Shown here: positions 25,401 to 44,163 of the stretch, in pieces
Layout of the letters: each line of letters starts with the position of its first letter
Position numbering within the stretch: position 1 is the first letter of the stretch
DNA from: Chloranthus sessilifolius
Taxonomy: Eukaryota; Streptophyta; Magnoliopsida; Chloranthales; Chloranthaceae
DNA length: 64,000 nt
Reading direction: 5' to 3'
NCBI GenBank assembly: GCA_021018995.1
Contig: CM037584.1
Coordinates: forward strand, 151,189,317-151,253,316
Notes under the pieces: generated by a model
What the model was told of the DNA's origin: nothing
What the model saw: the letters and a program-made list of their open reading frames with translations, nothing else
Databases searched by the model: none
Program-made: the position numbers and the translations under genes

Positions 25401-25563
25401 AGGAGACTCCACTCCTCCACTAGGGATCACCTAGGGGTTTAAAAGGCTTGGTGCATGTACTAAATGCATCCGTGTTCCCTACGAAAGTGGCATTTAATTT
25501 CTTAGGTTAGTCGCTTTAAATTTCACTTTGCTCGAGGACTAGCAAAGGTTAGGTTTGGGGGTG
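22449..25563 (+). other. Internal region of element C, non-coding
   Basis: After the primer site the 3.1 kb is T-rich with no frame above about 85 codons and no gag or pol motif. From about 23890 it matches the 3' untranslated regions of B and D, including AGGTTTGGGGGTATGGCAGG at 23924-23943. It ends in the polypurine tract AGGTTTGGGGGTG at 25551-25563. Confidence 0.65.
22455..22472 (+). other. Primer-binding site of element C, tRNA-Asp type
   Basis: TGGCGCCGCTGCCGGGGA is identical to the site of element A and lies six bases after the LTR end. Confidence 0.8.
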
Positions 25564-25899
25564 TGTTGGCCACTGATTTTTGCCACTTTCTACACCCTTA
25601 AAGTTGGCTTTTGATAGGACTTGGAGTATTTAATAATTGTTTTTAGTGTTGCTTTGCAGTAAGGAGTTAATTTCATCCTTAGTGCAGTTTTTAGTTAAAA
25701 GGTGCCATTTAAAGGAGTTTTAGCACCAGGCAAACAACAAGGAATGGAATGGTGATGTGGCCAGTTAATGAGGAAGCAAATTACAGCAGTTCTATGGGAG
25801 GAAATGGGTTCAATCCTATGCATAATAGAGGCACCTTGAGGTTCACTCTCCAATAGCTGCAAGGTACACATATGACACTACGTGAAAAAGCCCAAAAAA

Positions 25900-26115
25900 C
25901 CACTGGCTTAAATAGTGGTTTTTTCAAAAAACTACTGTCTTTGACAGTGGTTTTTTTTCAAAAAACCACTGCCCTAAACAATTGTAAAAAAAGGAGTGGT
26001 TTTTTTTTTACCACTATACAAGACAGTGGTTTATGAAGTTTATAAACCACTGTCTTGTATAGTGGTAAAATAAAACCACTCCTTTTTTTACAACTGTTTA
26101 GGGCAGTGGCTTTTT
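25900..26115. repeat. Long inverted repeat in the left subterminal region
   Basis: Arms of about 70 bp (roughly 25966-26033 and 26041-26112) pair around GAAGTT near 26036. They contain ACCACTATACAAGACAGTGG and its complement, with further CAGTGGTTTTTT units outside. It would form a strong hairpin. Confidence 0.75.
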
Positions 26116-26512
26116 TATGCAAAAAAAATTTTTTAAAAAATTACGTCGACAATTTTTTATGCAAATTTTTTTAAAATAATATTTTTTTTATGCTTTTTTT
26201 TAATGCAATATTTTTTATGCTTTTTGTAATACTTTTTTTTAATGTAATTTTTAATGCTTTAAAAAAAATTATATAAAAAAAAAAAGCTATTAATCTCATA
26301 TTCAAGCACATCCATAAATAAAATAGATGCCAAATTCTTTTATTCAAACAAAATATTGCATTTCAACCTATGATCCAACCTTTCAAATCAACCAAATATT
26401 TTATACTTTACATGCTCAATCCTTTTATTCCAAAAAAAAAAAAAAAGAGTTAACAATCTAAGGACCCCATGACCTAGTTTCATAATTTAAAAAAATAAAT
26501 AAATAAATAAAT

Positions 26513-26551
<39 letters not shown>

Positions 26552-26565
26552 TTCGCCTCTCCTGC
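26116..26565. other. AT-rich CACTA interior, no gene
   Basis: T and A runs (26130-26290), then AT-rich sequence and a TA dinucleotide run at about 26516-26549. I see no coding signal. Confidence 0.5.
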
Positions 26566-26628
26566 CAAATATCCCCGTCCCCTAGTGATCCGTTTGAGGT
26601 GAGCTTCAAATCGAAAAGTTTTGCCTGA
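26566..26628 (-). pseudogene. Unassigned exon-like segment
   Basis: On minus, an acceptor-like TTGATTTCAG precedes an open stretch reading AKLFDLKLTSNGSLGDGDIW in one frame; a second frame is also open. GC content rises sharply against the AT-rich flanks. I do not recognise the protein. It may be another captured exon. Confidence 0.3.
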
Positions 26629-26785
26629 AATCAAAAGGAGAACATAATTAAATATTTATGATATTAAGCAATTAAATTGAGATATTGATGACTTCTCATT
26701 ACAAAAAGAGGGACCTACACCACATGCTCTGAAATCTATTTAAAAGCAATCTGTTTAAACAGTAGTTTATTTTATAAAGCTATTT

Positions 26786-26863
26786 GATGACTGCACGACA
26801 ATAACGCTCCCACAACTTTATTGTAACATTTCCTTTAGTTACCTTACGCATATTGAATCCAAC
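26786..26863 (-). pseudogene. Captured exon of an ARL8-type small GTPase
   Basis: ARL8 proteins are Arf-like GTPases of lysosome or vacuole membranes. After an acceptor CTACAG, the minus strand encodes [18 protein letters not shown] followed directly by ERYCRAV. The switch I region (VGFNMRKV) is nearly invariant in ARL8. The family has about eleven residues between LW and ERYC, containing the G3 motif (DLGGQ). They are missing here, as by a deletion between two TGG codons, so the fragment cannot bind GTP. No neighbouring ARL8 exon is visible. Confidence 0.8.
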
Positions 26864-28334
26864 CTGTAGAACACATTACATGCAAAAGCATGGTTGTTCC
26901 TGTTCTGTACGAAACTATACGAAAAATGGCATGGTTGTTCCTATTCTGATATCTAGTGCTAAAACACAAATATCAATATAATTGAAAAGAACACTTACAT
27001 TATCAAAGTCCATTGAGATGTGGGATTACTCACCCATGAACCACACCTAGGCATAACATGAAAATAAACAAATTGCATTAGCAAGATTTTTAAGATGATG
27101 GGGATCATTTTTCGACCCATTCTTTCACTTAACTGATATTTAGATTATGGCTCACCTATCAATAGTACGATGTTGATTTCACATGGCAAACATCTTAAAA
27201 ATCCCGTGATCACAATCATTTATTGGGTGTATCCCACATGGAATCACGGTCTGATTGTTGATAGGTTAGCTGTGATCTAAAGATTTGTTGTATGCAAGAT
27301 TGGGCTGAAAATTAATTTTTATCATCTGATTCAAGACAATTAATTATTTTCATGTGTGAAAATCTTAGTTGGGAAGACCCAATCTTCAATTGCGAAAATC
27401 TGGTACACTTCACTCAAACCTACGCAAATTTTGATTCATTTTGCAACGAACGAGTTTGCAATTTGGTTTGGCCTCAGCGAAATTGTTCATGTTTTCAGTT
27501 AGATCTAATTTGCCTTAATTTTAAACATTTTATTTTAAAAAATATATAAATGTTTGCATGTTTGAACAAAGAATCTAATTAAATTAGATTGCTGATTCGA
27601 CCATTTAAGTGAACATATAAAAATAAGGTATTCCATATTTGGCATGGCGGTGTTATCAGTAGACAATTTTGCTGACTTATGTGGTGCTATGTGATTGGTA
27701 CGCACACATAGTGGGACCCAAGCACTACAGACAGTTATGCATGTCACGCCACATAAGCTGCCTGCACAAATGTTTATAAAAAATGGTCCACCGTTTATAA
27801 TTTTCCTTTATTCAACCCAATAATAATAACTAAGATATCAGAGAATATATTTTATAACTATAGCATTATTTAGTAAATACTAAATTCCACTACCAAAACC
27901 CCATGATTTTCAAACAAAGAGGGCCCCTCGTCACGGTTAGGTTGATCGGAAGTTAGCTGCATTTCCAATTCATCTTATTTACGAAATATATTACTCAAAT
28001 ATCAATAAATAAATATATACTAATAATTCACTTATATAGTAGGCTATAGTTATATATACCATGTATATCCTCTCCTCACACAAGGTAAAGCATAAAATTG
28101 AAGAGTGGGTGTTCAAAAACACGCAATATAGCCTATAGTTACGGACGGTGTTCATTAAAGAGGACTTGGCATTCTATACAACCTTTGCAGAAAAGGCCTA
28201 ATTAGAGTTGGTATATTTAGGATAGTACCCTAGGCATTGCTTGGTAATAATTTTTTTGAAATACTACATTTTAAATGATGTTCGCTCTGCTTTCATTAAG
28301 AAGAGAATACATTTAATTCAGATTTCAAGAGCTC
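26864..28334. other. CACTA interior without recognised gene
   Basis: Contains a foldback MITE-like inverted repeat at about 27093-27328 and otherwise AT-rich unassigned sequence. Frames at 27352-27549 and 27535-27747 show no family motif. Confidence 0.45.
27093..27328. mobile_element. Foldback MITE-like repeat
   Basis: The left side (AGATGATGGGGATCA ... GACCCATTC ... CACCTATCAA) and the complement of the right side (AGATGATAAAAATTA ... GCCCAATCT ... AACCTATCAA) align as diverged arms of about 85 bp. Target duplication is not clear. Confidence 0.5.
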
Positions 28335-28534
28335 TTTACTAATTTTTAAGTTTTTAAATTACTTACTACAATGTTTTAAGGCTTCCCAACTCTAATCTTA
28401 AATACTTGACCCAGCCATATCACTTTCTCATATGTTTACTAATTTTTAAGTTTTTAAATTACTTACTACAATGTTTTAAGGCTTCACAACTCTAATCTTA
28501 AATACTTGACCCAGCCATATCACTTTCTCATATG
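28335..28534. repeat. Perfect-length 100-bp tandem duplication
   Basis: Units 28335-28434 and 28435-28534 differ at one visible base (CTTCCCAAC against CTTCACAAC). It looks like a recent local duplication. Confidence 0.9.
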
Positions 28535-28877
28535 TTTGAGTTTTAAGAAAATGGATAGGTTGGGTTTGGATCAGAGCTCAACGGAAGGTTGAGAATATTG
28601 CAACTTCATGGTTGCGACTTTATCCAGCTTAGCTATAAAAACAAAATATAAGAAATGCCTAAAATGAGATAAGTTTGTAGACTAGTGTCCACGAAGGAAA
28701 TATTAATTTTGGTGAGAGAAAGAAACACATCTGAGAACCAAATAATAATAAACTATGATCATAAACTAGGAAGCCGGCCCATTTTTTACAATCCAAAAAA
28801 TGGGATTTTTTGCTCTTATTTTATTTCCCTTTAACCAAGGTAAAGTTTTCAGAAGTACCTGTAAAAAGATCGATCTT
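28535..28877. other. Intergenic-like CACTA interior
   Basis: No gene, repeat or site is recognisable here between the tandem duplication and the epimerase fragment. Confidence 0.4.
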
Positions 28878-29300
28878 TCACCCTTGGAGAACCCTTTGAG
28901 GATCCAATTCCCCACTACAATAACTAGAAGGAACGACTGAGATCTCCGGTCTTCCTCTCCATTCTTCAGGGTTTCAGAGTGATGGGCTTCAAAACATTGC
29001 AGCTTCCACACATAACATGTGGCTATACTCATCATCCCCAAAATGCATCGCCTTTCCTTCTTATCCCAAGGATTCCATGCCACTTTGTAGAAAGAGCAAA
29101 AAATGCATCGAGTAATATGCCCCTCTTATTGTAAGAGGTTTTTGTTTACCTAGACTAAAATTCCAAAAAATCAAAGAAAACAACTAAATGGGAGCCAAGT
29201 GGACATAGCCAAACTCACCAAAGATCTGGAAGTCCATCTTTCCCAAAACAAATGTCCTCTTCTTTTCATGGTCCAAAATTGCAATTTTGATAGGTGTGTT
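28878..29300 (-). pseudogene. Captured fragment of glucose-6-phosphate 1-epimerase (3' end, two exons)
   Basis: This enzyme (aldose 1-epimerase family) interconverts alpha and beta glucose 6-phosphate. Exon 1 (about 29215-29300, minus) reads TPIKIAILDHEKKRTFVL and, after a one-base frame change, KDGLPDL, then a GTGAGT donor. After an intron of about 125 bp, exon 2 (about 28878-29089) reads AWNPWDKK, then in another frame GDDEYSHMLCVEAA, EEWRGRPEISVVPSSYCSG and LDPQRVLQG. The order is that of the plant protein's C-terminus. Two in-frame stops and at least two frame changes make it non-functional. Retention of the intron shows capture from genomic DNA. Confidence 0.8.
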
Positions 29301-29564
29301 GTGATATAGTTTGTCCATTGTTTACACATAATAGTGTTAGTATCAAATTCATTACTAATATTTAGTAGTGAAGAAAGCACAAAATTCATTACTAATATTT
29401 AGTAAAATTTGGAGTCCTCAAATGATGAACATGAAAATCTATCCTAAAATATATATATTTTAAACAAGGATGCTCTTCATAACCTTCCGATCTCAAACAC
29501 ATTCGCAGACTAAAACCGTACTTGTTTCTTGATGTTTCCACTAAACAAAATAAAAGGCTGATAC

Positions 29565-29977
29565 CTATTTTATTAGAAGCAAAACAAGATGCTTATCGGG
29601 ATCCGCCTTTATCAAAGATCTTTGCAATATCAACACAACGGGTTCCAAGGGGATCCTGTGCATCAAGGACCTCCAAAATGACATTTGAAGCTTCTATGAC
29701 TTTCACCAATTCCTTGTAAAGTCCTTTCAGAGTTATCTATGAGCAATTAAATAAAACTATCAATAATAAAATAGGAGAAGAAATAAATTGAAATTGGAGT
29801 TATCAGCTCTCGGGAACATAAACGAGTTTGCATGCAAATAAATATACCATGACTTTTACTTATTTGGGTATCATCACCGTTGTTTCTCTTTGCAAACTTT
29901 TCTTCCTTAAGAGAAGCTTTATGAGCTAGATTGGATATATCATCTTCCACCAACCCCAACTTCCTCTTTTGAGCCGG
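29565..29977 (-). pseudogene. Captured fragment of nucleostemin-like GTPase (NSN1/GNL3 type, two exons)
   Basis: Nucleostemin-like proteins are nucleolar, circularly permuted GTPases for ribosome assembly. Exon 1 (about 29854-29977, minus) encodes KRKLGLVEDDISNLAHKAS and KRNNGDDTQISKSH, then a GTATAT donor. Exon 2 (29565-29736) follows a CATAG acceptor: DNSERT, then after a one-base change [28 protein letters not shown], and after a second change [10 protein letters not shown] up to AAATAG and a GTATCAG donor. This covers the linker and the start of the GTPase domain. Frame changes make it a pseudogene, but the match to the family is strong. Confidence 0.85.
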
Positions 29978-30814
29978 CAATTACAGAAAATTTCATTCAT
30001 TTTGGCAATTGTACATAATATAGAAGAATACGATGCCTATTTCTGAGTATGCAAAAGGCTGCTAATTATATTGACCTAACAAATAACCGTGCTAATATTA
30101 AATGATGCATCATTAAGCCACATAATTAATGACAATATATAGAGACCGATCGAGAGTAAGACTTACGAAGAGAGCAAAGAAAATGATAAATGCATCAGCC
30201 CATACCTACCACATCAGCTCTCAAATGACAAATCTGGCATCTTAGTGACGGGGTAAGATCATATTTATCAGCATAATGGCTCTTGTCCGACATTTAAACA
30301 CAAAAATGGTGTTTAAATGAACATACACCCTTAAAATAATATATGATAAAAATATGACCAACTTCAAAATCATGATTCCAAAAATCTTATGCAAGAAGAG
30401 TTACCTCGGATCATAAGTCATTGAGATTTTTTGCCTGTAACGATACGAGAAATCAGAGGCCCTCTGAAATCTTCATTGAAGAGAATCCTTGTCGCATTAT
30501 TTGGAATCTCGCATCCACATGGTGCAAAAATGATGATCACTAATATTATAACGCAAACAAAAAGGAACTGAGTCCACATTGTGCAAAAATTACATGGGTG
30601 CTTCAAATTTAAGAAACCACCAACAAGATTAAAGGAAACGAAACAAAAAAACAAAAACAAAAACCACACATAGAAGTAATGGGAAGGGATTGCATAGATT
30701 CAATGAATGACCTATCATCCATGGGAATGCATGAACAAAGTAATATCGATTAGGTTTCAATATGCTTACGCAAGCATATAACATATTCAATGAGCAAAAT
30801 CCTCATATATATAC
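29978..30814. other. CACTA interior, one weak exon-like piece
   Basis: At about 30410-30442 a short segment lies between an AG and GTAAC on minus, but it encodes a stop and matches nothing I know. The frame 30418-30669 (hydrophobic start, then EIPNNATRILFNEDFRGP) is unassigned. Otherwise AT-rich. Confidence 0.4.
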
Positions 30815-30898
30815 CTGCACAAAATCCATGTAATCCATTCGATAAAGATGATGGCCAGATAATATCAGTATATTCTCGATGTTTTTATTTTTGGCATC
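30815..30898 (-). pseudogene. Captured exon of ADP-glucose pyrophosphorylase large subunit
   Basis: This plastid enzyme makes ADP-glucose for starch. The 84-bp exon has an exact acceptor (CTATTTAG) and donor (GTATAT) and encodes 28 open residues: DAKNKNIEN followed by [19 protein letters not shown]. This is the conserved nucleotide-sugar-binding segment of the large subunit; the family's SGDHLYRMDY has His for Asp here. No other exon of the gene is visible nearby, so a single exon with intron flanks was retained or the rest has decayed. Confidence 0.85.
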
Positions 30899-30929
30899 CT
30901 AAATAGATGAAAAGAGCAACATCATAATT

Positions 30930-31450
30930 AAAGACCATGTCTAAAGGCTAAGGCCCCATTGGGGGAGCACCTTAAAATTTTAAAATGGCCTATTAACATT
31001 TATTCAACTTGTGCATTTGGGTAAATGCTGAATTCTGATTTAAGAGTGCACCATTGATGTTTTTACACTAAATGAATTATCCATATGGCTGCAGATTAAA
31101 TAATGACCAAAGCAATAATTCCTTATTGGCAATGATACATGGTGTAAGCGTGAATGAGGAAAGTTGACCCATTCCAAATCTAGATTGGAACATCTCATCC
31201 GTGGCGAGGTGATTTGAGATGTATCAATCAAAGAAATCAAGCTTGAAACGATGAACTCCGAACTCTTCATTTGATCTCCGTCTATAATCTCTTATGGTAG
31301 AAACGGCTATGATCCTCCGATTCGAGAGAACTTGCTACGATCATCGATTTTGGTGATTTCTCTTGTGATGTTCTGAAAAAGCAAAATCCATGCGTTGGGG
31401 TTGATATGCAAAACGGAAATAAGAGTAGCTAGGGTTTTTCGGCTAATTGA
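30930..31450 (-). pseudogene. Unassigned possible 5' exon with telo-box leader
   Basis: On minus, AAAAACCCTAGC at about 31426-31437 (a common plant 5' leader motif) is followed by an open frame at 31270-31040 starting MKSSEFIVSSLISLIDTSQ. Composition is more GC-rich than the surroundings. I do not recognise the product. It may be the first exon of another captured gene or chance. Confidence 0.3.
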
Positions 31451-31810
31451 ATTGATGAAATCGAAGGGTTGATATGCAAAACAAAGATCATAATGTTTCT
31501 TAAAACAAAATAATATCGCCTACTTGGTTTAACTTGAAGTTTAGTCCCACAAATTTGCTCTTTAGATTTTGCTAGCTTATACGCTGACTAATCACGATGA
31601 GATTATCAACTAGATTGTGACTTAAGTAGTCTTCCAAGATGTCCAACATATGTTGAAACTAAGAATATATAAGCACTCTATGCCCTTGTTCTTTAAGCTT
31701 CACCATCATCTTGTCCAACAAGTGCAATTTAAGAATCCAAAAAGTTGTCAAAGAAAAATATAGTAGCAGCAACAATAAAAAGACAATTTATTAGCAACAG
31801 AATTATAGGT

Positions 31811-32080
31811 TGTGTTTGGGATTGCTATTTGTAGCCAAAGAGAAGCCCACTTAAAAGAGCATGTTTAAATTGCTCTTTTAAAGAGAGACAAATTCAGCTC
31901 TTTCACTCTTTGAAAGAGCTAACTACAACCATACACAATCTTATACTAAAGTGCCTGTTTGGGATTGCTACTTGGAGGAAAAGAGCAGCCCACTTAAACA
32001 AGAAGTTTAAATTGTTCTTTTAAAGAGACTCAAATTCAGCTCTTTCACTCTTTGAAAGAGCTAAGAGCACTACAACCATA
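31811..32080. repeat. Two tandem copies of a MITE-like repeat
   Basis: TGTTTGGGATTGCTA begins copies at about 31812 and 31957. Each carries CCCACTTAAA, TTTAAATTG and CAGCTCTTTCACTCTTTGAA, and ends in an ACAACCATACA sequence. Spacing is about 144 bp. Confidence 0.65.
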
Positions 32081-32581
32081 CAGTCCTCTACTACAAATTT
32101 GATCTCATCATGATGCTAGATTCAAAGTGTGATTAAAGCTGTCCTTAATTGCTTAGAAACCCGTGCAACCCCGCATCATGCGACCAATCTCTCCCAGAAG
32201 GCATTAAGCGCCAAGGACATCGACCTAAAAAACAAAGATAAAATTACTAAGTTAATCATGCTTTGAATCTAGCATGACATAATGAGGACCATATTTTATA
32301 GTACATCTTACATTAGCCACATCATTTTGGCTACCATAACGCTGAAAATGCTGATGTGTGCTTCAAAAGAATTTTTTTTCGCTAAAGGGCAATTCCCAAC
32401 CAAGGAAATATAAGAAGCGCCTCAACTAAAGGGCAATTCCCAACTTCAAATTAAGTGGCTAATTAATTAGATTAAAGGTAAACAACCACACTTCAAATAC
32501 CAATTAAAAGGTAATTTATTCATAAATAAAACGTATAATTTATTCAAAAAACAAATGTACCCAAAGCAGAGAACAGCATAC
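32081..32581. other. CACTA interior with one exon-like patch
   Basis: At about 32150-32228 (minus) a GC-richer stretch follows a TTTTTTAG acceptor-like site and is open in two frames. I do not recognise it. The rest is AT-rich without signals. Confidence 0.35.
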
Positions 32582-32651
32582 CTGGCATTGCACATCGATG
32601 CCACCCTTCTTGTACTCAACATAGAGGCATCGTGAAAACTGATCAATGTAC
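32582..32651 (-). pseudogene. Captured exon of beta-ketoacyl reductase (KCR1 type)
   Basis: KCR1 is the endoplasmic-reticulum 3-ketoacyl-CoA reductase of very-long-chain fatty acid elongation. The 70-bp exon is bounded by TATTTTTAG and GTATGCTG on minus and is open: [17 protein letters not shown], then IDVQCQ. The Tyr belongs to the short-chain dehydrogenase C-terminal half just after the catalytic YxxxK. Reading frame and both splice sites are intact. No second KCR exon is visible. Confidence 0.85.
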
Positions 32652-32929
32652 CTAAAAATAAAGAAAATTAACAAGCTGTCATTTGAAACTCTTAAATAAA
32701 ACTAAAACAAATCCCTCCTACTACTAATTTCCTCTAACTAACAATTATGTAACCGTTCTAAAAACACATGAAAATGATAAAAGAAAAAGTAGATCCTTCT
32801 ATATTAAAAAAAGAAACAAAAACTAAAAGTAAAACAAAAAATGGGTTCGAGCACAGCCTGCTAATTTGAATGGGTTCCTAATTTGAACATGCTCTCCTAA
32901 TTTGAATGGGTTCGAGCACAGCCTGCTAG
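32652..32929. other. AT-rich CACTA interior
   Basis: No coding signal. A short direct repeat of TAATTTGAATGGGTTCGAGCACAGCCTGCTA-like sequence occurs twice between about 32840 and 32930. Confidence 0.4.
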
Positions 32930-33110
32930 AAGATTGGCACGAGAATCCGGAAAGCACCAAGTAGTGCCAAATATCTTGGCATATAACACCTATTTTCCAA
33001 GAAGCCGCCTTATCTTTTGATGTGATTTAGTGTGAGAATCTTGTCCCAAGCCATTTTCCAACAAAGAACAAGTACCTTGTTAGAAACTAGAATGTTCCAA
33101 AGGTTTTTTT
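32930..33110 (-). pseudogene. LINE fragment (zf-RVT region)
   Basis: On minus, KVLVLCWKMAWDKILTLNHI is followed by KR, a stop, then LENRCYM. This is the zinc-binding region after reverse transcriptase in plant LINE elements (typical pattern W..GKILTLD.L..RG...NRC..C). It is a small, stop-containing piece of a non-LTR element inside the CACTA transposon. Confidence 0.5.
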
Positions 33111-33140
33111 TCCTGTGAGAGTCAATAAAAGGTTGACAAC

Positions 33141-33168
33141 TAAAGAGAGAGAGAGAGAGAGAGAGAGA
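33141..33168. repeat. GA dinucleotide microsatellite
   Basis: An uninterrupted AG run of about 28 bp. Confidence 0.9.
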
Positions 33169-33792
33169 AAACCCACTTGACTCAAAGATCCACACTCATC
33201 TTTCTTATTTACTAGAACATACACGTCATCTAACTTACACAAATGAAAAGGCAAAGGGGATCCTCACATTCATTTGCCTGGTCTAACAAGCAACTATACT
33301 CCATCAACTATGGCACACATCATAACATATGTGATATTCCATATCTGATGATCAATGAAAAATACCGCACAAAATTAATAGATATAGATATAGATATAGA
33401 TTTCAAAAGTACACATCAGCAAAAGACCTCTACTATTTTCTGAATCATTGTCATTGGTTCAAAAATGAGGGCCAGAAGTGTGACCATTGATGTAACATCT
33501 GATCCTATATATTTATGCATCATTTTCTAGTAATCATCATTTTCAGGTCGAGCCGAGCCGAGTTGTCGAGTTAGCTCGGCTCTGTTGTAGCCCTACTCCT
33601 AGTGAATATGGATTCTTAAATTAGAGTTTAGCATCAAATGTCTCAAAGAGAACTTTGAAATAAGCTAGCAAAATATTGTATTAGATAATCCTATGCAAAG
33701 TTAAGCCTCGTGGAAGTTGTTGCATTAATATATACCTAATTTGATCAAGTAAATTAAAAGGAGCAGATCTTATGACCCAATCGATTCCCTAC
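33169..33792. other. CACTA interior without gene
   Basis: Contains a short GATATA repeat at about 33380-33400 and a TCGAGCCGAGCCGAG / CTCGGCTC inverted pair at 33546-33581. No protein signal. Confidence 0.4.
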
Positions 33793-33898
33793 CTTAGAAG
33801 ATGAGGTATCTGTAGGGCAAGCATCTTCATCATCCAAAAATTTATCAACAGGTGAGGAGGTCCCATCAAAATGCTTAAACAAGAGTCCCTGTTTTCCA
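33793..33898 (-). pseudogene. Unassigned captured exon with intact splice sites
   Basis: The 106-bp segment is bounded by TTTTTTAG and GTAGGG on minus and is open for 35 codons: GKQGLLFKHFDGTSSPVDKF, then acidic LDDEDACPTDTSSSK. Its position 3' of the WD40 fragment on the same strand makes a later exon of that gene possible, but I cannot confirm it. Confidence 0.45.
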
Positions 33899-34540
33899 CT
33901 AAAAAAGTAAGGTGGTCATAGAGCAGAACACATATTACTACAATACTATAAAAAAATGATAGCAGAAAATCCAAACAAAATTAGACCAAAGAGTAGACCT
34001 AGTTTCCTTATTGATACAATTTAACTGTGAAATAAAGAATTGGTACCGACTTTGTAGCTACCCAATTTGCGTTGGACGAACCAGCTCCATAGATATATAA
34101 ATTTTCATACAAGATACATTCACACAATTGTACATGCATATGTGGATGTGCCATACATACATAGACCTATGCACACATACATACATCTATCTGTGTGCAC
34201 AAGGTGCAGCTTAATCTAAATACTCGATCATTAAGTCATCCAATAAACACACCATCTTAGGCTTTCAAGTTTTAATAGATTATCAACCAAGACAGACATT
34301 GATCAGTGCTGGGCATATGCTCGATAACAATGTAAAGTTGATGTTAACAAACAGATTAGCTATTTATCATTACCATTAATCCAAATATTACCATCTAATC
34401 AAACTACAAAATCCTCACTAAAAAAATAAAGAATGGTATCGGCTGTCGACACTAACAAGTGAACATGTTCCATAGTGGTTTGATGTCAGCTAACTAATAC
34501 AAAACATACCTAAATGTATGGCAATCGACTTGCTCGGTGT

Positions 34541-35515
34541 TCAAACAACTACCAAATTGTTGATTTGTGGCGATTCCAATTTGGCGTTTTCCTTTGAATC
34601 GGGTAGAAACCCGATTTCCCACAACCTAATAGTTCCATCAAAAAACATGTTGCAAAAGAAACCCCGCACAACCTCTAGCCACACATCCAAGAGCTGGATC
34701 ATGCATGCTTTTACAAAAATATTTTGACATCCCATATGCATGCACGATGGGAAATGAGTACACAACACCTACTAACGAAAATACCAAAAAATCTGCATCA
34801 AAACCTAATAAGCAATAAGATTTAACCACTCAAGATTTCCGGATTATAAACAAGAAATTCAGCTCCATGAGGAGTTGTGGGGATGGACATCTTTGGATTA
34901 AGCATTAAAATAAAGAAATTATCGGAGGTTGTATACCATATGACCAAGCAAACAAGAAAAAGTGAAAAAAGGAGAATATTGAGGAAAATTCACATGTAAA
35001 GATCACCTTATGAACATCCCATACATATAGATCTGTGATCTTCATAAATACCAGAACAAATATATGATGCTTTAGGATCCATCCATGGAAAGAACGAATT
35101 GTAATACTAACTATGGAGAGAATTTTAATACTCAATTGCTCACCAAGCTTTTCCGAGGTTGAGAATTGGCAAGCAATAACATTGGGGAGAGTGACATAAT
35201 CGAGAATTATTAATGAGGATTTTACATGACTCATATCGACACCTATAGTGTTCATTTGTTTCCAATATTGCAAACTTCGATACTTGAGAGAATCAACAAA
35301 TAAGAGTTGCACAATTCCATTATCGCAGCACAAGCAATAAGCTTGTTGGACATGCATAAAGGCAAAACCCTTGTCAACCCGCAATTTGAGTCCTTAAACC
35401 GTTATAAAAGAAGAACATTCATTGACTTCAACAAATAAAATTTTAGATTGTACCTTTAAATCAGCCCATTTACTAATTGAAAATCCGGGACGATGAGACA
35501 TAAAATGCCACGCAA
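34541..35515 (-). pseudogene. Captured fragment of a WDR62/MABP1-like WD40 protein (several exons)
   Basis: WDR62/MABP1-type proteins are WD40 scaffolds; the plant members are poorly studied. On minus, in gene order: FMSHRPGFSISKWADLK with a GTACA donor (from 35454 up); VDKGFA, CDNGIVQLLFVDSLKY and IACQFSTSEKL (about 35390-35140); YVWDVHK with a GTGATC donor (about 35008-35055); MHDPALGCVARGCAG and, after a one-base loss, FDGTIRLWEIGFLPDSKEN (about 34730-34541). The D-G-T-I-R-L-W strand is a classic WD repeat end. Order and spacing fit one gene with introns retained. Several one-base changes break the frame. Confidence 0.75.
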
Positions 35516-35557
35516 GTTAGGAGTAAATAATTAAACCATTAAAAAGTGCAGAATGCT

Positions 35558-35685
35558 CATGGTATCAAAACTCGGCCGATACTGATACCGCCCCAACACA
35601 GGTATCGGGTGGTATTAGTATCGATATCGGTATCAAACCGATACTATCTCGGTATCAGCCAATACTAACCGATACGACCAATTTT
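35558..35685. repeat. GATAC/GTATC-rich palindromic repeat
   Basis: CCGATAC and GGTATC alternate about a dozen times in 125 bp, including ATCGATATCGGTATC. Similar short repeats occur scattered in plant genomes. Terminal repeats and target duplication are not evident. Confidence 0.55.
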
Positions 35686-36734
35686 TATTGTATAAAGCTG
35701 TAATTAAATTCAGCTTAGAAATTTGGATTGCCTAATTTTCTAAAGCCTAGTAGTAGGCTCGAAATACAGCAAGACCTCACTGAATCAGCCCACAAAAGTT
35801 GAATAGTCTATTTTAGTTAATCTCGCCTAAACCAGCACCTAAAAGATTAAATAGTCCCTGCGTAGGGGCTGCCCTGTTCAATCTAACAACCCTACATGAG
35901 TTCAGCAGGGTGTGGTACTAGTCAAGCACCATTAAGTGATGCAATGAAGTTGATTACCAAAATAGATGAATCACATAACAAGTGTTTTATGCTTGTAGCA
36001 CATGAACAATAATTGTAAACATTTCAGAAATTACTAAATGCAGCTTTTGAAATAGTGATTACACATTTTTGCTGAAATGATTTTATCGTATAAAGAATTG
36101 AAAAGAAAGGTATATACATTCTTATAATCAACATAATGCATGATAAATATTGGTTTTAGCCTGCATATGATTGATAGAGATGATAATATGTAAAGAGTAT
36201 AGAAATGCATAAAACCATGATTAGAAAACCAACGAAATGGTTTTATGATATTTATGACTATCATAGAGAAAAGGTCGTGGTGAATCCACGGATATATGGA
36301 AAGTGTTAGCCAGCCTATGCATACACTTTAGCTTAGGCCTGTGACAGCCCAATCGTTTTAAAGTGGTTAATGGTTTAGTAAAGGAATTACCATAAAGGAC
36401 CAAAAATGTGTTACAAAGAAACGATTTTTATTCAAAATCATAGCATCCTTGTGTTGAAAATACTAAAATAACTCATATGTTTTATTCAAAGCATCACTTT
36501 GAGCTCCAAATCAGTGAGACATCAAAAAACTACTCTTTAGCTGAGTTGTGTGCATATAAATAGTTCGGCAACTCTTGAGGCTAATTAGCCTTGTGTGGTA
36601 CTTGAGTCAGGTACGTAATGCCACACACACACACACACAGACAGACAGACATATATATATATATATATAATTTTATTTTATATTTTTTTACGCGCTTCAT
36701 AAATGATACCAAGTTTGCAGTGCAGATATCTTAC
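35686..36734. other. CACTA interior, AT-rich, with microsatellites
   Basis: No gene is recognised. A compound CA / GACA / TA microsatellite lies at about 36622-36669. Confidence 0.45.
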
Positions 36735-36805
36735 AAAGATATGAGGTTTCGAAGGTTTCCCAGTTCTCTTGGAAGAGGTCCATTCAATGCATTAATACCA
36801 AGGTC
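36735..36805 (-). pseudogene. Captured LRR exon of a receptor-kinase-like gene
   Basis: The segment of about 71 bp between TATTAAG and GTAAGATATC on minus encodes one leucine-rich repeat: LGINALNGPLPRELGNLRNL then ISL. The N.L.GPLP.ELGNL.NL pattern is that of LRR-VIII-type receptor kinases, whose LRRs are encoded by 72-bp exons. It is open and has a good donor. A single repeat cannot identify the gene further. Confidence 0.6.
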
Positions 36806-38062
36806 CTTAATAAGAACAGAGTAACCATTAGAATATGAAAACAAGTGAACAAAGTAACCATAAGAATATGAACACAAGTGAATAAATACATCATTTCTGA
36901 GATACAACTGGCATCGTCCAAATTCTCATTCGCAATGCGACACAAATAAGGACACACTTAATACATGCATACACGCATGTAAGTGAGAAGCCACCTATGT
37001 GACCAATTCAGATAGGTCACAAATTTAAAATGACTCATATTTTCGTGGTCTTATGCGAATGAGGGTCCCTTACCACATCCTCATAAATGAAAAATCTTCC
37101 ATATTTGCTAAGTGAATACTTAAACTTGAATTTTTCAGCGAAATCATTATCTGCAATATATTACTTGAATTTCAACACTGCATTGGTGACTGTAGGTTCC
37201 CTCGTTAGATAAAAACTTTTATAGGTTACTCTGATCATACTCTCAAGGATGGGAATAAATTTTTAAGCGTCTAATTCTAAATTACAAAATTTTAATCACA
37301 AATCATTACTTTCTCATCGGTCCATATTAAAGATTACTTTGAAGTGGGTTGGTATTTAGAAGTACAAACAAGACCACTTTTGTTAGGAATAAATCCAATA
37401 TTCACTCGCCCATTTGTTAATCCAGCCTAGAAATCATGCTTGGGCACAGCCTGTTCATGCATAAACAAGTTGGGCCTAGCAGGCTTTGGCCGAGCTTAAA
37501 TGGGAAATGGTTCTAACTCCCAAAGCACTTCCAATTTATTAATTGATCTAGGATTTCAAGCCCGGAATAATTCATGGTGGTCCAAAAACTTAATCCAGAA
37601 CATTCAGGGTAGGGCAAAATGGTTTATCAATCGAATCTAGAAACAAAGTTCAGATTGAATCTCTTTTTGCTTAGTTGGAAAGGGGCTTGCAGCATGGGTC
37701 AGGTATTAGTGGAAATGGCTTAACACCCAAGCACAACTGATGCAGGACCAAATACTAAAACCTAATTTAATGGCTGAGATTAAAAGTTATATTTATGAAC
37801 AATAAATTATATAAATAGAATGCTGAATTTCAAGGAAAAATTAAAGAAGGGTACCTCTATTCACACCTACACAATAACCGAAAGCGCCTATGTCTGAAAC
37901 CCATTGAATGTTGGAATCAGACTATGGAGATCGTGTTTCACCTGCTTCTTCCACACAACAGATTTGTGACCATGAAGTAGGTCACCAATTCAGATATGTG
38001 ACCTCCACCAGGCTGCAAACATCAAATGCAAGCACAAAATTGGGTTCCTCTGCCCAGCCACT
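36806..38062. other. CACTA interior without recognised gene
   Basis: Low GC, no family motif. A slightly GC-richer stretch at 37880-38060 may continue the unassigned segment split by the hAT MITE. Nothing else stands out. Confidence 0.4.
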
Positions 38063-38070
38063 GATTCAAC

Positions 38071-38287
38071 CAAGGATCAAAATTTCGGCTGAAATGACCG
38101 AAATTTCGGTCCAAATTATCGGTTTTGGTCCTCACCGAAACGATAATTTGGACTGAAATTTCAGTCATATTTTTGTATGGGATTGAAATTATCGGCCAAA
38201 ATTCAAATTTTTGGCCGAAATTTCAGTTCAAATTTTCGGTTTCGGTCCCCTCCGAAACCGAAATGAAACCCAAAATTTTGATCCTTG
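38071..38287. mobile_element. 217-bp hAT-type MITE with 8-bp target duplication
   Basis: Terminal repeats CAAGGATCAAAATTT and AAATTTTGATCCTTG enclose a largely palindromic interior rich in CCGAAATTTCGG. GATTCAAC is duplicated at 38063-38070 and 38288-38295. An 8-bp duplication fits the hAT superfamily. Confidence 0.85.
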
Positions 38288-38295
38288 GATTCAAC

Positions 38296-38405
38296 AACCA
38301 CTTCTTAACAACTTCCAGCCACTCAACACCATCCTTACCATAGATCTCAGTAAATAACCCATTCCGATAATCGAAAAACTTGAAAAATAGCAATGTAAGA
38401 ATCAA
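38296..38405 (-). pseudogene. Unassigned coding-like segment interrupted by the MITE
   Basis: On minus it reads FKFFDYRNGLFTEIYGKDG, then VEWLEVVKKWLLN, open until the MITE target site, and resumes beyond it with QWLGRG near 38060. The composition is protein-like, but I cannot name the family. Confidence 0.35.
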
Positions 38406-38739
38406 ACGGTATAAGGAACCTTTAGAAAACTCATAAAGGAGGAAAAAATCTCACATATCTGAAGAGTGAGGGGCTGATCTATAGTTTTCCATGAGTTCGA
38501 GGATTACAACAAATGGAGGATCGGTGGGTTTCTTAGGTGTTCCAAATGACAATTTGCATTTCACTCGACATCCACGATCTCAGTCACACCAACATAGCAA
38601 GATGGGATTGAGATTCACATGTTTCGAGGCTGGGGTATCCAATCTAAACCCCCTTGAAGTAAGCTGGAGCAGCATCACCTGCTTCTCAAACCAATTGCAA
38701 CGAGAGGTTGGGGAAGATGAGGGTTATTTGATTTCTCTG

Positions 38740-39010
38740 ATCTTGAGCTTCCAATCGAAGATCGGATCAATTTTCCTCATCAACGCTTATCCATTTTTTG
38801 CATACAAGGGGAATCCGATGCAAGTCCCTCTGAATTTTGTGTTGTTTCAGTCGAACCAAGGGGTTTTGGATCCGATCTCAAATCTCCGCTACGACAACAT
38901 GTTATGCAGATCAACGCTTATTTACGTTGGCGGAGCTAGGGTACTCGCACCTACTGGTGCAGAGCTCGGAGACGGGGTGGCCGTCGAAGGGCGACGACGA
39001 GGACGAACTC
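38740..39010 (+). pseudogene. Captured GH17 beta-1,3-glucanase fragment
   Basis: GH17 enzymes hydrolyse beta-1,3-glucan (callose) in the cell wall. The plus strand encodes SKIGSIFLINAYPFFAYKGN, VLFQSNQGVLDP and LRYDNML; after a frame change near 38905 it continues LAELGYSHLLVQ and SSETGWPSKGDDEDE. The Glu of SETGWP is the catalytic nucleophile of the family. The N-terminal third and the C-terminus are missing. It is the only identified captured fragment on the plus strand. The frame runs on into unrelated Arg/Glu-rich sequence that includes CTAGGGTTTG, the reverse of a typical 5' leader. Confidence 0.85.
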
Positions 39011-39129
39011 GTGTGGATTGTCGAGAGAGAGGAAGAGGAGAGAGGCTAGGGTTTGAGAGAGAAAGAAAATAGATGAATGTGGAGACGGCATATTTGTTTG
39101 CATAATAAAGGGGGAAGGTTTAGAAGTAC

Positions 39130-39309
39130 GATCACGATAGATTTGGCACGTGATGGCGGTTAGAGTTGCACATGATAAGGATTAACTAGTTAAACCACTG
39201 TTTTATTATAATAAACCACCGATTTTGGCAATGGATTATTATACTATTGCTTGGGCAGTGGTTCTTTATATATTTGGAGGTGTGGTTTATGTGCCATTTT
39301 CACGTAGTG
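39130..39309. repeat. Right subterminal region of the CACTA transposon
   Basis: AAACCACTG / CAGTGGTT and diverged copies (AAACCACCG, GCAATGG) recur from about 39193, ending in the terminal repeat TTTTCACGTAGTG. They match the motif of the left end. Confidence 0.75.
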
Positions 39310-41656
39310 TGAGCAGCAGTTCATTCAATCAAAGGAAAAACCAGCAGCAATACCTGAGGAGTTGAAGAGCTGAAACCAGCTTTAGGACACTCGAGCTGCA
39401 GAATTATAAGGCCAAGCATGTATATATCTGAGGACCAGTTGATAGCCGCTGCGATGAAGGCAGCCAAGCATTGAATGTGCACTCTAGCAGCAACAAAGAA
39501 TGCGACCTGCAATACAAGCATTGCAACTCTTCAAAGTGCAGCAGCTTCTGCAACTTGTCGAAGTCCGACCGCAAAGTAGTTGCACCCATTGGCACAGCAG
39601 CCTATCGAAAGGATGCTCCAATTCACTGCATTCAGCTAACTTGTCGAGGAGCCCTTTGCTACCTCCAAGCCCATCAACTAAGCTGCAGCTCATCTTCAAC
39701 CTCACTACATGCACCTGCACCAACCAAACTGTCATTGAACCTATCGAATTGCTGAAGTAGCTGAAACAACAAACATGTCAAGCAGATGAAGAGTGAACAT
39801 CCATCCTGTCGAGCAGTGCAGCAAGGTACACATAGATCCTATCGAAACCTTGCAGCAGCCCTCTACAGCTAACCTATCGAAATACTCAGTTGAAACCTTC
39901 ATCTTATCGAAACAGCAAGCAACACCTAGCACCTATCGAAACACCAGCTGCAGCCCCACCCTTCATCCTATCGAATTTGTCAAGTGCTGCAGCTGATCCT
40001 ATCGAAATGGAGCTCCTCAGCCTTCACCGTATCGAAAGGCTGAAGTAACGGCTTCACCAAACCTCACGACAGCTTCCTTGCATGAAAGCTTCAGTTGCAA
40101 TCCAGTTCACAACACCTATTGACCGCCTAAATATCTCAATCCGTTGAGATGCCCAACCGCTGGCATTCTCCAATCTGCGGATGTGCAGTCAAGATCCTAT
40201 CCAACCGTCGATTTCTCAAAAAGCCCTTCAAACCTGGCGTCTTAAGTGCAGCTGCATTTATATATATATGCTCCTTGCTTCAACCTCCCATTAGAGCCTA
40301 TCGAAGGGTTCATTTGGCTGCAGCTAACCTATCGAAATGCTTCAAGCCTATTCTTTCAAGCTGCAGCCATGAGATTTAATATCAGCAGTTTAGTAAAACG
40401 GGGCCCATTTGGGGCTGTTTTGGTGACAAACAGTAGGGGTATTTTGGGGCAGCGAGAATGATTATTTTGTGGGCAATCACTTGAGGTGTGCACTTGGTAA
40501 AAGTAACGGACAGCAGGGGCAGCTTGGGCCCATTTTGCGGACAGCAGGTATAAAGCTGAGCAGGAGGCATTTTGTGGTTGACAAGGGCAGATTGCGAACT
40601 CCAATGCACAGGAAACCCTATACATGGGTGTGAGCTAATTTTTGGCGGGAATGCAACTGAAGCACAACAGAAGGGGATTCATCTCTGCTCTCTGATTGGT
40701 TGAAACCCAAGGCACAAGGATCAATGAAAATGTATAAATAGAACTCCTTTCTGCTATTTTTCTTCAGCAAGAAAAGTAGGAACAAAGGAATAGCCTGAGT
40801 TCTCCTTAGCTCATTTAGGTTTAGTTTTAGTTTTTTTATTTTTCCTTTTCTCTTCCCCCTTCTCTCTCTAATCCAGCCTGTTGGATTAGATCTAGATAGC
40901 AGCTCAGATCTTGTTTGTAATTGTAATTTCGGCATGAAGAAATGTGGATCGATGCACAGACTACAGATCTGGGAACAAGTTTATTGTAAGTTGTTTTGTT
41001 TGAAGTAATAAATTGTTGATTTTAAAGCTTAGTTAAATCTAAAGATCTTGTGGTCCCATTAGATTCTCGATCGGATTTGTGTAGAGGAGTTTGTTAATCA
41101 GCTCACCCACTTAACTAGTAGATCTCTTGATGACCATCTAATTTTCATGGGTTTGATATACCTGTGGGTGCCTGTGCCTGTGGCCTTGCATCCATAGCAC
41201 CTATAGTGATTATCTTATTCTGATTGAAGCCATCAGAATGGAGGAAATCTATTAGATGATCTGTGACCATTTAAGTGGACAGATCATAGCCTTAAGATCG
41301 ATCCAAACCATCGAAATGGAGGAAATCTATTGGATGATCTGTGACCATTAAAGTGGATAGATCATAGCCTTAAGATCAATCCAAACCACCGGTCTAAATT
41401 AGATTCTTATACCTTGCATTTGTGCTTGTAGCCAAATGAAGGATGGCTGCATATCCTCAGATCATAATCTGTTTTGCAATGAACACCAGGCCCTAGCTGT
41501 CTATCTCTCCCCATTTTATATTTTATTTTTCCATCCACCTTTCTCAATCTTTTAGATTTAGTTTTATATTTCAGTTTTGTAGAATTAGATCTAGTGACAC
41601 CCGAAAAGCCCTCTTTCTTAATAGAATTACCAGATCTGGAGGTCTACTACACACCT

Positions 41657-44163
41657 TGTAACAGCCCGGATTTCTGTTTCCAGAAATCCGTGCCGTTAGG
41701 ATCATACTCTGGATGATCCCAGATCGATCACACGTGTCCGCGCATATAGCGGAAGCTAGGTGGACACATCCGAGCAGCGGTAGTCTGAGTCAAACAATTT
41801 CTACGCTAAATACACGTCAATAATATTTAAATATAAGGAAAAACATACACATTCCCAAAAAGGAACCAGGAAGAACCATCGGTGATGGACGTACATCACC
41901 CAAACAATGGTTCCCGATAGTGGTTCCGAAATGGAATGTGGACTAACATAAACTAAATAAACGTAGAATCATATATGTATATACAAGGTGGCCACCAGGC
42001 ACACAATAGTCCAAAAGATCAAAAGCTACGGATAAAACTCGTCTGGGCGTCCGTCTCCTCGTCCTCCGCCGCCTCGGGATCCGGTGATAGTCCGGGTCAC
42101 TCGGCCAACGCTGCGGCCTCGAGAACCTAAAAAAAGATTTGAGAAAGCGTGGTGAGCTACATCATAGCTCAATAGAAAAAACCATCTAAATGAATCGAAT
42201 ATGCAGATCATGCTATCTCATAACAAGACAATTCGGATCATGTACTCAAAACAAATCAGTTAAAAGCTGGGAACTTTATGCAAGATGTCAGATGTCATGC
42301 AGATATATTATCAGAGTACTTAAAGTGTGTCTATTTAACTTAAGAAACTCCCGTGACTGTATAGCACGGAGTAAACAGGAATGACCGATAGGAAACCCCA
42401 ACCAAATCGTCGTTCACATGAACAATTTTGAAAGTGCAACAATGCCTCATCTATGGAGCGCTATTGTGCCGAGGATTTGAAAGCAATTGCACAAGTGTGC
42501 CTGGACTCGGATATACCGGGCGGTGGGGATCATCTGGATTAAATCATTAAATCACATACTTATATACCTCACAGATCAGATAGCAGAAATTCAGAAACAG
42601 ATGTCAGTTATTCAGATCAGAAACAGAAATCAAGATGACGAGATTCATGCTATGCATATATGCTTGGTAAAAAAAACAGAAATCAGGGCATGAACATGAA
42701 ATGAACATAAAATCATACTCAAAAGCAGTTTAAGTTGGTTTTCTCCTACCTCAGATCAGTTTATCTTCTAAGCAAATCCAAAGCTTTTTCGACGTGTCAG
42801 GGTTTATCCTATACCATAGGCACAGTACATTAAGTGTTAGGAGTGTCAGAGAATTACCCGGCACCACATCCGGGGTGTCTACTTTATAAAGCCAAGACAG
42901 ACAAAAACAGGGTAAGTGATCGATCACCAACCTCATTGATCGATCACCACCCACTGTAGATCGATCACCACCTTGGTGATCGATCACCAACCTGCTTATC
43001 TCTCTCTCAACACAGTCAAGGTTGATCGATCACCACCTTGGTGATCGATCACCAACCCTCCTGTAGATCGATCACCACCTTGGTGATCGATCACCAATGC
43101 AATTTCAAAAACTCCCCCTTCTGTCCACATCAATTTCTTATACAGATTGATCGATCACCACCTTGGTGATCGATCCCCAACCTCATTGTAGATCGATCAC
43201 CACCTTGGTGATCGATCACCAACTCCCTTGTAGATCGATCACCACCTTAGTGATCGATCTACAACTCGGGCAAGAACTTCCTAGCTTCTGGGGTCTCTGT
43301 TCCCCATAAGGCTTATACAGATTGATCGATCACGGTCCTTGGTGATCGATCATCAACTTCGTGATCGATCACCACCTATGGTGATCGATCACCAATGAAA
43401 AAGTCATTAATGGAGTTCACCTCCCATCCATTTTTGATCTCCCTCGACTAATGGTTGTTCAATCACCATTAATACTTCATAAATACACCCTCTAAACTAT
43501 CCTTTAACCCTATTTATCATACACAACTCACCTTGTTCGTGGGTTCCTTGAGGTTCAAGCAATGACCCGAAAGAGGGTCTCAAACCTAGATCTGAGCTCC
43601 TCCTCGATCCGGATCCCGAGAAGCTCTTCACTACAGTTCGACAGATCAAGGCCTCTCACACCAATCTCAAACCCCAAATAACTCAATCACCTTGGTCTAG
43701 CTACTTCTAGCTTAGGAATCCCTCATCTTCACTCTTGTTAACCCTTTTCTTCTCTCTCAAAGGATCTCTTTCACACTTTCTTAGCACAATCTCCAACCTA
43801 TGGAGCAATTAGGGCAAGGGGATGAAGGAGAAGAAGAGTGGAAGTCTCTCCTCTCTTGTCTCCCTTCCTTCCTCTATAAGCTACCTCCTCACAGCAGAAT
43901 TTCTGTTTTGCCCTTGGTGCCCGCTCCGGTGTGAAGCATGAACACAGTTGCTTCCGCGCAATGTGTTCCACCTACCCTCTACACATCTAGGATCTAGATG
44001 AAATTGCACACGTGATCTCATCTCATCACGGTGCCACATTATTTAAACTAATATAACCCTAAAGTTTTTGAATCAACCTTGGTTTCCGTGTCGGGCACGC
44101 GGATCACAGCAGTCGGGCTCGTGTTCTAGTTTTCTTTTTTTTTTTTTTTTCGGGGTCGTTACA
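41657..44163 (+). mobile_element. Solo Tekay-like LTR (2.5 kb)
   Basis: It starts TGTAACAGCCCGGATTTC and ends GGGGTCGTTACA, with CACCT duplicated at 41652-41656 and 44164-44168. No internal region is present, so the element was reduced to one LTR by recombination. The ends resemble Tekay/Del LTRs and the E LTR tail (GGGTCGTGACA). A TATA-like CATAAATA lies at about 43473. A hairpin array occupies 42915-43400. Small frames inside have no homology I know. Confidence 0.85.
42915..43400. repeat. Array of GGTGATCGATCACC palindromes
   Basis: About 18 GATCGATC cores occur in under 500 bp. Most are paired as GATCGATCACC, ACCTT, GGTGATCGATC, which is a hairpin with 11-bp arms and a 5-nt loop. Spacers between hairpins are variable. 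Confidence 0.9.

Follow-up and report, generated by a model that had tools for sequence, protein, structure and literature searches.

A non-autonomous Pack-CACTA transposon of Chloranthus sessilifolius carries pieces of nine host genes and retains scars that hint at how they were joined

The present study analyzes a window of 64,000 nucleotides from Chloranthus sessilifolius, in which pieces of nine host genes lie between the ends of one 13,434-bp transposable element (25876..39309). The element is almost certainly a non-autonomous Pack-CACTA transposon, and its cargo consists of exon-intron pieces of the nine genes that were copied at the level of genomic DNA, most of them now decayed. The gene pieces were probably patched in by error-prone DNA repair, and scars within the element suggest how. 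The best explanation of the data overall, and one we consider likely, is a non-autonomous Pack-CACTA that gained its cargo by template-switching break repair and carries it passively.

The element begins and ends with the 13-bp inverted repeat CACTACGTGAAAA, starting with CACTA and exact in both copies (25876..25888 on the plus strand, 39297..39309 on the minus strand). A scan of the window allowing up to two mismatches found this end solely at the two element termini; at least two such matches occurred in 41 of 100 shuffles (mean 1.39), and the scan by itself is within chance expectation. The element is accepted as real because of a TGA target site duplication (25873..25875 and 39310..39312), an uninterrupted LTR across the insertion point, and 959 exact 20-base family ends in the 2.17-Gb host assembly versus none for a reversed control pattern. 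The insertion lies in one LTR of a retroelement, now split into a left (25562..25875) and a right piece (39310..41660), while the other LTR (19597..22269) provides the intact empty site; the LTR-based K2P was 0.067. The CACTA element, inverted ends and TGA duplication proposed in the first-pass annotation are thus borne out. Subterminal tandem and hairpin repeats occupy about 25893..26127 at the left end, where single-stranded DNA would fold into very strong hairpins (z -18.4), and the inverted arm of this hairpin was present in all 40 of the scored genomic left ends. CCACTG/CAGTGG occurs at both ends, as three and three copies on the left and one and one on the right. CACTA inverted ends, a 3-bp duplication and subterminal direct and inverted repeats place the element among CACTA (En/Spm) transposons, and CACTA ends around host coding DNA in a multi-copy, transposed element place it within Pack-CACTA. 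No TNP2-type transposase (Transposase_21) was found in 20 fragments and seven stitched peptides of the element, covering part of its frames, and the element is non-autonomous as far as seen. Rfam at gathering thresholds gave no match in 25000-40000.

All eight gene fragments named from the sequence alone were located in the order given, through PDB, Pfam and matching genes; an exon of a CHD3-type chromatin remodeller had been missed and brings the total to nine. An ARL8 exon with its splice acceptor (26783..26890, minus strand; PDB E 1.2e-9) lacks 12 codons between two TGGGA repeats. The last exons of glucose-6-phosphate 1-epimerase (28072..29349, minus) contain several frameshifts, and their Pfam Aldose_epim match (2e-9) rests on a peptide stitched across these; the unstitched pieces had no match in Pfam or PDB. 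Exons and introns of a nucleostemin-like GTPase (NSN1/GNL3) follow at 29360..30180 (minus; match 3.6e-9). The AGPase large subunit piece at 30662..31038 (minus; 2.4e-9) comprises one exon (30806-30898) together with its splice sites and adjoining sequence. The CHD3/PICKLE-like SNF2 ATPase exon (31615..31808, minus) has an in-frame TAG and matched PDB at 0.006 unstitched and at 1.4e-7 when stitched with X placed at the stop. The KCR1 fragment (32399..32843, minus) includes an exon at 32582-32650 whose AG and GT borders are both intact; this exon itself had no match in PDB or Pfam and is identified because the adjoining exon of the matching gene is adh_short (7e-18). Identity of the MABP1/WDR62 module (34060..35688, minus; gene homology 34510-35352) similarly comes from the matching gene, which carries PF24782 (6e-43); the fragment alone matched weakly when stitched (0.019 and 0.054) and unstitched had only irrelevant matches in PDB. 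A leucine-rich repeat of a receptor-kinase-like gene (36734..36811, minus) reached only 15.7 bits for its best single repeat, and a glycosyl hydrolase family 17 (GH17) fragment lies at 38773..39010 on the plus strand (9e-5 unstitched, 1.3e-10 stitched). Relevant Pfam matches were obtained for 2 of 20 unstitched exon pieces, and NCBIfam on five peptides returned relevant matches for SNF2 and GlgC only. Further exon-like pieces occur at 30421-30492, 33757-33915 and 38226-38450, and nested mobile elements seem to be present at 27093-27641 and 38071-38287.

Eight of the nine fragments, all except GH17, are on the minus strand, and the earlier count of seven of the eight named fragments in one orientation was correct. 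The sign test on this bias (two-sided, p about 0.04) presupposes nine independent captures, which they are not, and the bias was therefore dropped as evidence. Nor does the cargo represent eight separate captures by this element, as first read, because the ARL8 and GH17 pieces are components of the family's common ends (GH17 of the right end), found at dozens of places, and NSN1-AGPase is present elsewhere in the genome as a single block. The window element is itself a chimera of two family types, A (left half) and B (right half), joined at 32843-32885. The family is multi-copy, with left flanks that differ at 20 loci, and the other copies that had been anticipated in the same genome have their own 3-bp duplications. 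Matching duplications were found in six of the 11 elements where both ends were looked for (TGA in the window, ACT at C2:58.94M, GAT on C6, ACA on C14, ACA at C5:76.15M and TCA at C5:154.95M); in the other five (C15:11.72M, C2:161.57M, C2:22.85M, C3:128.90M and C13:41.43M) the right end was absent from the stretch read. Transposase_21 is abundant in the genome, with 1763 candidates, and by-eye comparison of the 150 that were scored with the family ends listed, out of 959, yielded no pair. A 10.2-kb relative (L044) was rejected as the autonomous element, having four stop-to-stop frames of at least 100 aa and only its ends in common with the window element.

Absence of donor genes elsewhere had been set as a test that could refute the proposal. 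A search with eight of the nine fragments, all but the leucine-rich repeat, gave matching genes for six; for the other two, ARL8 and the epimerase, it gave longer relatives. The matching genes are on separate contigs (AGPase on C1, MABP1/WDR62 on C2, NSN1 on C8, KCR1 on C9, CHD3 on C14), and the candidate for GH17, with an open frame of 425 aa (91%), is on C3. One locus (L034) was rejected as the epimerase gene; it is possibly a mosaic too, because an AUX/LAX-like piece lies alongside the epimerase there.

Eight borders were read, a set outside which the NSN1|AGPase, leucine-rich repeat and GH17 borders fall, and filler copied from adjacent sequence was present at four of them. These are the ARL8 edge (26888..26942; 14-bp local direct repeat, compared on the gene side only), epimerase|NSN1 (29345..29404; 23-bp local direct repeat), CHD3|KCR1 (32382..32444; 19-bp local direct repeat) and type A|type B (32840..32928; 24- and 17-bp local repeats in about 41 bp of filler). 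At the last three the filler is missing from relatives of both sides, these relatives being present-day loci 83–99% alike and not the actual templates. No filler was present at AGPase|CHD3, at either WDR62 border or at the epimerase edge at 28072, where again the comparison covered just the gene side. With low complexity filtered out, the 12.1-kb interior contained seven local repeats of at least 14 bp, five of them at the four mapped borders and two (28387 and 31398) at none, versus zero in a single control flank of equal length from the same window. The WDR62 piece took the place of an older segment of about 1.07 kb, retained in relatives, two of which have the flanks of the WDR62 module around this different segment. 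A locus at C2:148.98M matches the inserted 1.63 kb alone, at 95% and with other flanks, and ends at both module borders, with a 5-bp match at the right one; it could be a sink instead of the source of the module. The borders were shared by differing numbers of elements (ARL8 six, epimerase|NSN1 seven, AGPase|CHD3 four, CHD3|KCR1 six, A|B three, WDR62 left four), and no locus was found spanning the WDR62 right border. The three elements with the A|B border are all among the six with CHD3|KCR1. A clean stepwise order of capture was rejected; the sets of copies found for the individual borders do not nest neatly inside one another, and their counts suffer from deletions and from uneven coverage.

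Template-switching break repair is on balance favored as the main capture route because of the locally copied fillers and the replacement of a segment by WDR62. A CACTA transposase supplied in trans would move the element via its ends, and breaks inside family members may be repaired by copying unlinked templates, so that the interior grows. The polymerase would switch template at short matches, leaving small locally copied fillers, and the finished mosaic would later be multiplied through transposition. Published work on Pack-CACTA in Arabidopsis (PMC13317346, PMC8903248) instead models capture as fusion, in which two nearby CACTA insertions lose their inner ends and move as one with the intervening DNA, and the joining of two family types in the window element is consistent with this. 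However, matching genes on different contigs would need one fusion per gene, the WDR62 module was swapped in for a segment in place, the fillers are local copies, and the 13-bp end occurs only at the two termini, so that fusion is unlikely to be the main explanation. An alternative could be that the cargo is retained for chimeric proteins or for small RNAs regulating the donor genes. Chimeric splicing is documented for Tgm-Express1 in the account of PMC1947982, siRNAs to donor genes from other maize elements are described in PMC13317346, and splice borders are retained on the KCR1 and AGPase exons. Against this, the CHD3 in-frame TAG is common to eight places, the AGPase D-to-H change to four and the 36-bp ARL8 deletion to seven; the pieces were therefore altered before amplification, and we regard retention for such roles as improbable. 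Judged from these shared changes in three fragments, coding function, including functional chimeric proteins, appears unlikely; the cargo is seen as passive, with transcription or small RNAs possible. More doubtful still is a reading in which the element was passive and received each fragment independently, as a nested transposon or as a segmental insertion. The apparent nested mobile elements would accord with this, but no inverted ends or target duplications were noticed in a non-systematic reading of the gene-module borders, and WDR62 replaced resident sequence without splitting it. A Helitron or Pack-MULE, which also carry gene pieces (as described in PMC2773423), is refuted by CACTA inverted ends and 3-bp duplications in all six elements with two ends found.

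The element belongs to a known kind, Pack-CACTA, and capture of gene pieces is also known for Tgm-Express1 and Tpn1. Tgm-Express1, a 5.7-kb soybean CACTA, is described as carrying exon and intron pieces of five unrelated genes (PMC1947982), and the nine here, compared by description and not by sequence, agree with the earlier view of an unusually rich shuttle of host gene pieces; that element sits in a gene intron, whereas the present one sits in an LTR. The Tpn1 family of Japanese morning glory is reported to comprise hundreds of non-autonomous copies in which the ends are conserved and host sequence has taken the place of the interior (PMC5105172), a likeness drawn from description and not from end sequence, while here the common ends themselves hold gene pieces. 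In Pack-CACTA of Arabidopsis and maize, coding DNA of several loci is likewise enclosed by CACTA ends, with more loci in longer elements according to PMC8903248, but capture is proposed there through fusion of neighboring insertions and the border scars here point to template switching. Short matches at breakpoints and fillers on capture are also described for Pack-TIRs, with gap-filling and FoSTeST models (PMC8277862), although those are animal and not plant elements.

Gene-carrying elements were already known; this one retains scars that hint at how its gene pieces were joined. Pickup of unlinked gene pieces by plant DNA transposons is described as possibly occurring through an undiscovered mechanism (PMC13317346), and gap filling for plant Pack-MULEs is left open in the account of the animal Pack-TIR authors (PMC8277862). 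For annotation there is a warning, in that the nine gene pieces in the element are not genes. With about even confidence, the family may be read as a fossil record of capture, comprising template-switch repair, fillers at seams, one segment swap, and before and after forms still extant, with the hairpin possibly causing the breaks. At the seams described here, a single assembly contains the joined product as well as relatives of either side, and the question of capture is therefore testable by counting across the 959 ends.

The interior of the element (25876-39309), examined by six-frame translation with pieces tested singly or joined, contains nine gene pieces in the order ARL8, glucose-6-phosphate 1-epimerase (G6PE), nucleostemin (NSN1/GNL3), AGPase large subunit, CHD3-type SNF2 ATPase, KCR1, MABP1/WDR62, leucine-rich repeat and GH17, the last on the opposite strand. 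The first-pass annotation had named eight of these, all of which were recognised in the order it gave with GH17 alone reversed, but its list was incomplete in missing the CHD3 piece. ARL8 (E 1.2e-9), NSN1 (3.6e-9) and AGPase (2.4e-9) were clear unjoined and GH17 improved from 9.1e-5 to 1.3e-10 on joining, while epimerase (2e-9) and CHD3 (1.4e-7) were obtained after joining pieces across frameshifts or a stop. The WDR62 and KCR1 fragments were insufficient in themselves and could be identified only through a matching gene, and the leucine-rich repeat match, right in kind, is based on one repeat. Exon-like minus-strand pieces at 30421-30492, 33757-33915 and 38226-38450 could be assigned to no gene.

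The inverted ends and TGA duplication described from the sequence alone were borne out by the ends in the window and by an unbroken copy of the target. CACTACGTGAAAA occurs at 25876 (+) and 39309 (-), with TGA adjoining each end. A 13-base end match could be chance in 64 kb, at least two matches arising in 41 of 100 shuffles when up to two mismatches were allowed. Insertion inside the window is proven because 19597-22269 is an unbroken copy of the sequence that the element interrupts, leaving 25562-25875 and 39310-41660 as pieces that overlap by TGA; one member of a pair of LTR-like copies thus holds the element. We read this layout as the LTRs of one retroelement, and the divergence between the copies (K2P 0.067 over 2,659 aligned bases) sets an upper limit to how old the insertion is. 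Nested in the element is a 217-bp hAT-like MITE (38071-38287) with ends, identified by eye, of CAAGGATCAAAATTT and an 8-bp duplication GATTCAAC at 38063-38070 and 38288-38295. A 548-bp self-inverted repeat unit at 27093-27641, which stands alone at C3:173.81M (97%), is probably also a nested mobile element. Downstream, 42916-43395 holds arrays of 19-42-bp repeats based on GATCGATCACCACC.

Other copies, expected by the first-pass annotation, were found in the same assembly (2.17 Gb, 32 contigs) with their own flanks and 3-bp duplications. A first look with the left 225 bases gave 1,629 candidates; the 40 matches that were scored are 98-100% identical, and all 40 also match the inverted hairpin arm. 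A 20-base pattern for both ends had 959 exact genome matches versus 0 for a reversed control. Left flanks differed among 20 loci fetched for their left ends. Matching duplications were present in 6 of 11 elements where both ends were sought: TGA in the window, ACT at C2:58.94M, GAT at C6:14.86M, ACA at both C14:31.79M and C5:76.15M, and TCA at C5:154.95M; in the other five (C15:11.72M, C2:161.57M, C2:22.85M, C3:128.90M, C13:41.43M) the right end was absent from the stretch read. Two family members, C14:31794686-31805592 and C5:76150016 to about 76158690, differ in their right end, CACTACGTCAAAA, and have right halves of their own. Transposase_21 is abundant genome-wide, and none was tied to the family's ends among 150 places scored of 1,763 candidates. 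The element is a non-autonomous Pack-CACTA, which would be moved by a CACTA transposase acting in trans.

Comparison with these relatives does not sustain the view of eight separate captures; rather, the element is a mosaic. A 526-base left module with ARL8 was the sole match in 25 loci, ARL8 itself turning up at 91 places (97 scored), and the final 512 bases of the 36680-39240 query, GH17 included, were the sole matched part in 28 loci (40 candidates scored), 27 of which recurred among the 60 places in 77 scored by GH17 protein search. ARL8 and GH17, matching so widely on their own, are therefore components of the ends that the family shares. The NSN1-AGPase stretch (29360-31166) is a single block at C1:48.66M, with extra sequence at each side. 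The window element is itself a chimera of two halves (types A and B, joined at about 32840-32928): the left half continues differently past 32843 in C15, C5 and C14 members, and three others have different sequence ahead of the right half. The AGPase piece carrying a D-to-H change was identical in 4 places (26 matches), the TAG inside the CHD3 match occurred, assuming the same position, in 8 full-query-length places (27 matches), and a 36-bp ARL8 deletion was common to 7 of 91 places; these changes preceded the spread of copies. Because AG and GT borders are intact on the KCR1 and AGPase exons, those pieces derive from genomic DNA rather than mRNA. At two further places, C13:31499900-31508546 and C3:105629239-105636800, KCR1-like and CHD3-like matches are separated by 7-8 kb; these are perhaps more composite loci.

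Donor genes had been anticipated elsewhere in the genome, and matching genes were found for AGPase (C1:73.52M, 97% over 29 residues, AGPase exons on both sides), MABP1/WDR62 (C2:10.478M, DNA 84-91% identical, a WD40 domain of that family next at 6e-43), KCR1 (C9:114.95M, 96% over 23 residues, neighbouring exon adh_short 7e-18), CHD3 (C14:14.23M, 94%, next exon Helicase_C 4e-12, with a glutamine codon at the site of the element's TAG) and NSN1 (C8:64.85M, DNA identity 84%), with a candidate for GH17 (C3:144.72M, 91%, 425-aa open frame). Past the captured border at C8:64.85M lies what we take, from a sequence motif, to be the next NSN1 exon, on which Pfam was silent. ARL8 and epimerase yielded longer relatives only. 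Three exons that we take to be ARL8 lie near a family left-end sequence at one fetched locus (L071), one with an Arf match (2.6e-11) and another without a Pfam match; the locus looks like a family relative carrying a longer ARL8 piece. Presumably, again by sequence motif, an upstream epimerase exon lies past the captured border at three loci (C2, C3, C10), where Pfam scores were weak (0.083 and 0.24). One of these, C2:26.34M, has an AUX/LAX-like transporter piece (Pfam Aa_trans 6e-7), at 3126-3509 of the fetched locus (L034), near the epimerase exons, and is perhaps another gene-piece mosaic.

Two loci, C7:126.65M and C5:155.58M, carry between the WDR62 flanks a different segment of about 1.07 kb, the two versions being 91.6% alike. 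The window has lost this segment and has 1.63 kb there instead, a stretch that C2:148.98M matches by itself at 95%, unrelated sequence flanking it on both sides. Because both a closer relative (flanks 97.5 and 91%) and a more distant one (90 and 85%) retain the segment, the derived state is that of the window. Among loci compared, the ARL8 edge was shared by six elements, G6PE-NSN1 by seven, AGPase-CHD3 by four, CHD3-KCR1 by six, the join of the halves by three, the left WDR62 border by four and the right, for which there was no spanning locus, by none. All three elements with the joined halves are among the six with CHD3-KCR1, and that joining was therefore later; the remaining borders do not nest cleanly because of deletions and uneven coverage.

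Eight borders were compared with relatives, six on both sides and the ARL8 (26890) and epimerase (28072) edges on the gene side only. Four contained filler that repeats sequence lying no more than 70 bases away, namely the ARL8 edge (14 bp), G6PE-NSN1 (23 bp), CHD3-KCR1 (19 bp) and the join of the halves (24 and 17 bp). There was no filler at the 28072 edge, AGPase-CHD3 or the left WDR62 border (about one shared base), nor at the right WDR62 border, where TTTAT is shared. When the 12.1-kb interior was scanned, with low complexity filtered out, for direct repeats of 14 bp or more whose starts lie within 120 bp, there were seven (five at the four filler borders, one a nearly perfect 100-bp tandem duplication at 28335-28537, one unexplained) and none in one flank of equal length. 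At each of two borders the observed match was reached in 0 of 5000 simple base shuffles of neighbouring sequence, and of 336 positions tried along the element four reached 21 bp, three within the tandem duplication and the fourth at G6PE-NSN1. The unexplained repeat of the scan, a 17-bp local direct repeat at 31398-31482, like the border scars and away from mapped borders, is perhaps an older seam. Fusion of neighbouring insertions is a published rival as the route of capture; template switching during break repair is the best-supported, and the left hairpin (z -18.4) might, as a guess, cause the breaks. Such repair is plausible in plants given that in rice foreign segments served as filler in 58 of 94 inferred transposon excisions (PMC4423477).

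Multi-gene CACTA shuttles are already known, and the window element is one more. Among the published cases compared, Tgm-Express1 is likewise a shuttle, with five genes versus nine pieces here, Tpn1 has hundreds of copies with substituted interiors, and maize Pack-CACTA draws on several loci per element; 5 CACTA elements with gene pieces are given for 22 Mb of maize (PMC2773423) and single-gene cases for Chenopodium (PMC8978399). Nine is a high number among these cases. The value of the window element is in its seams.
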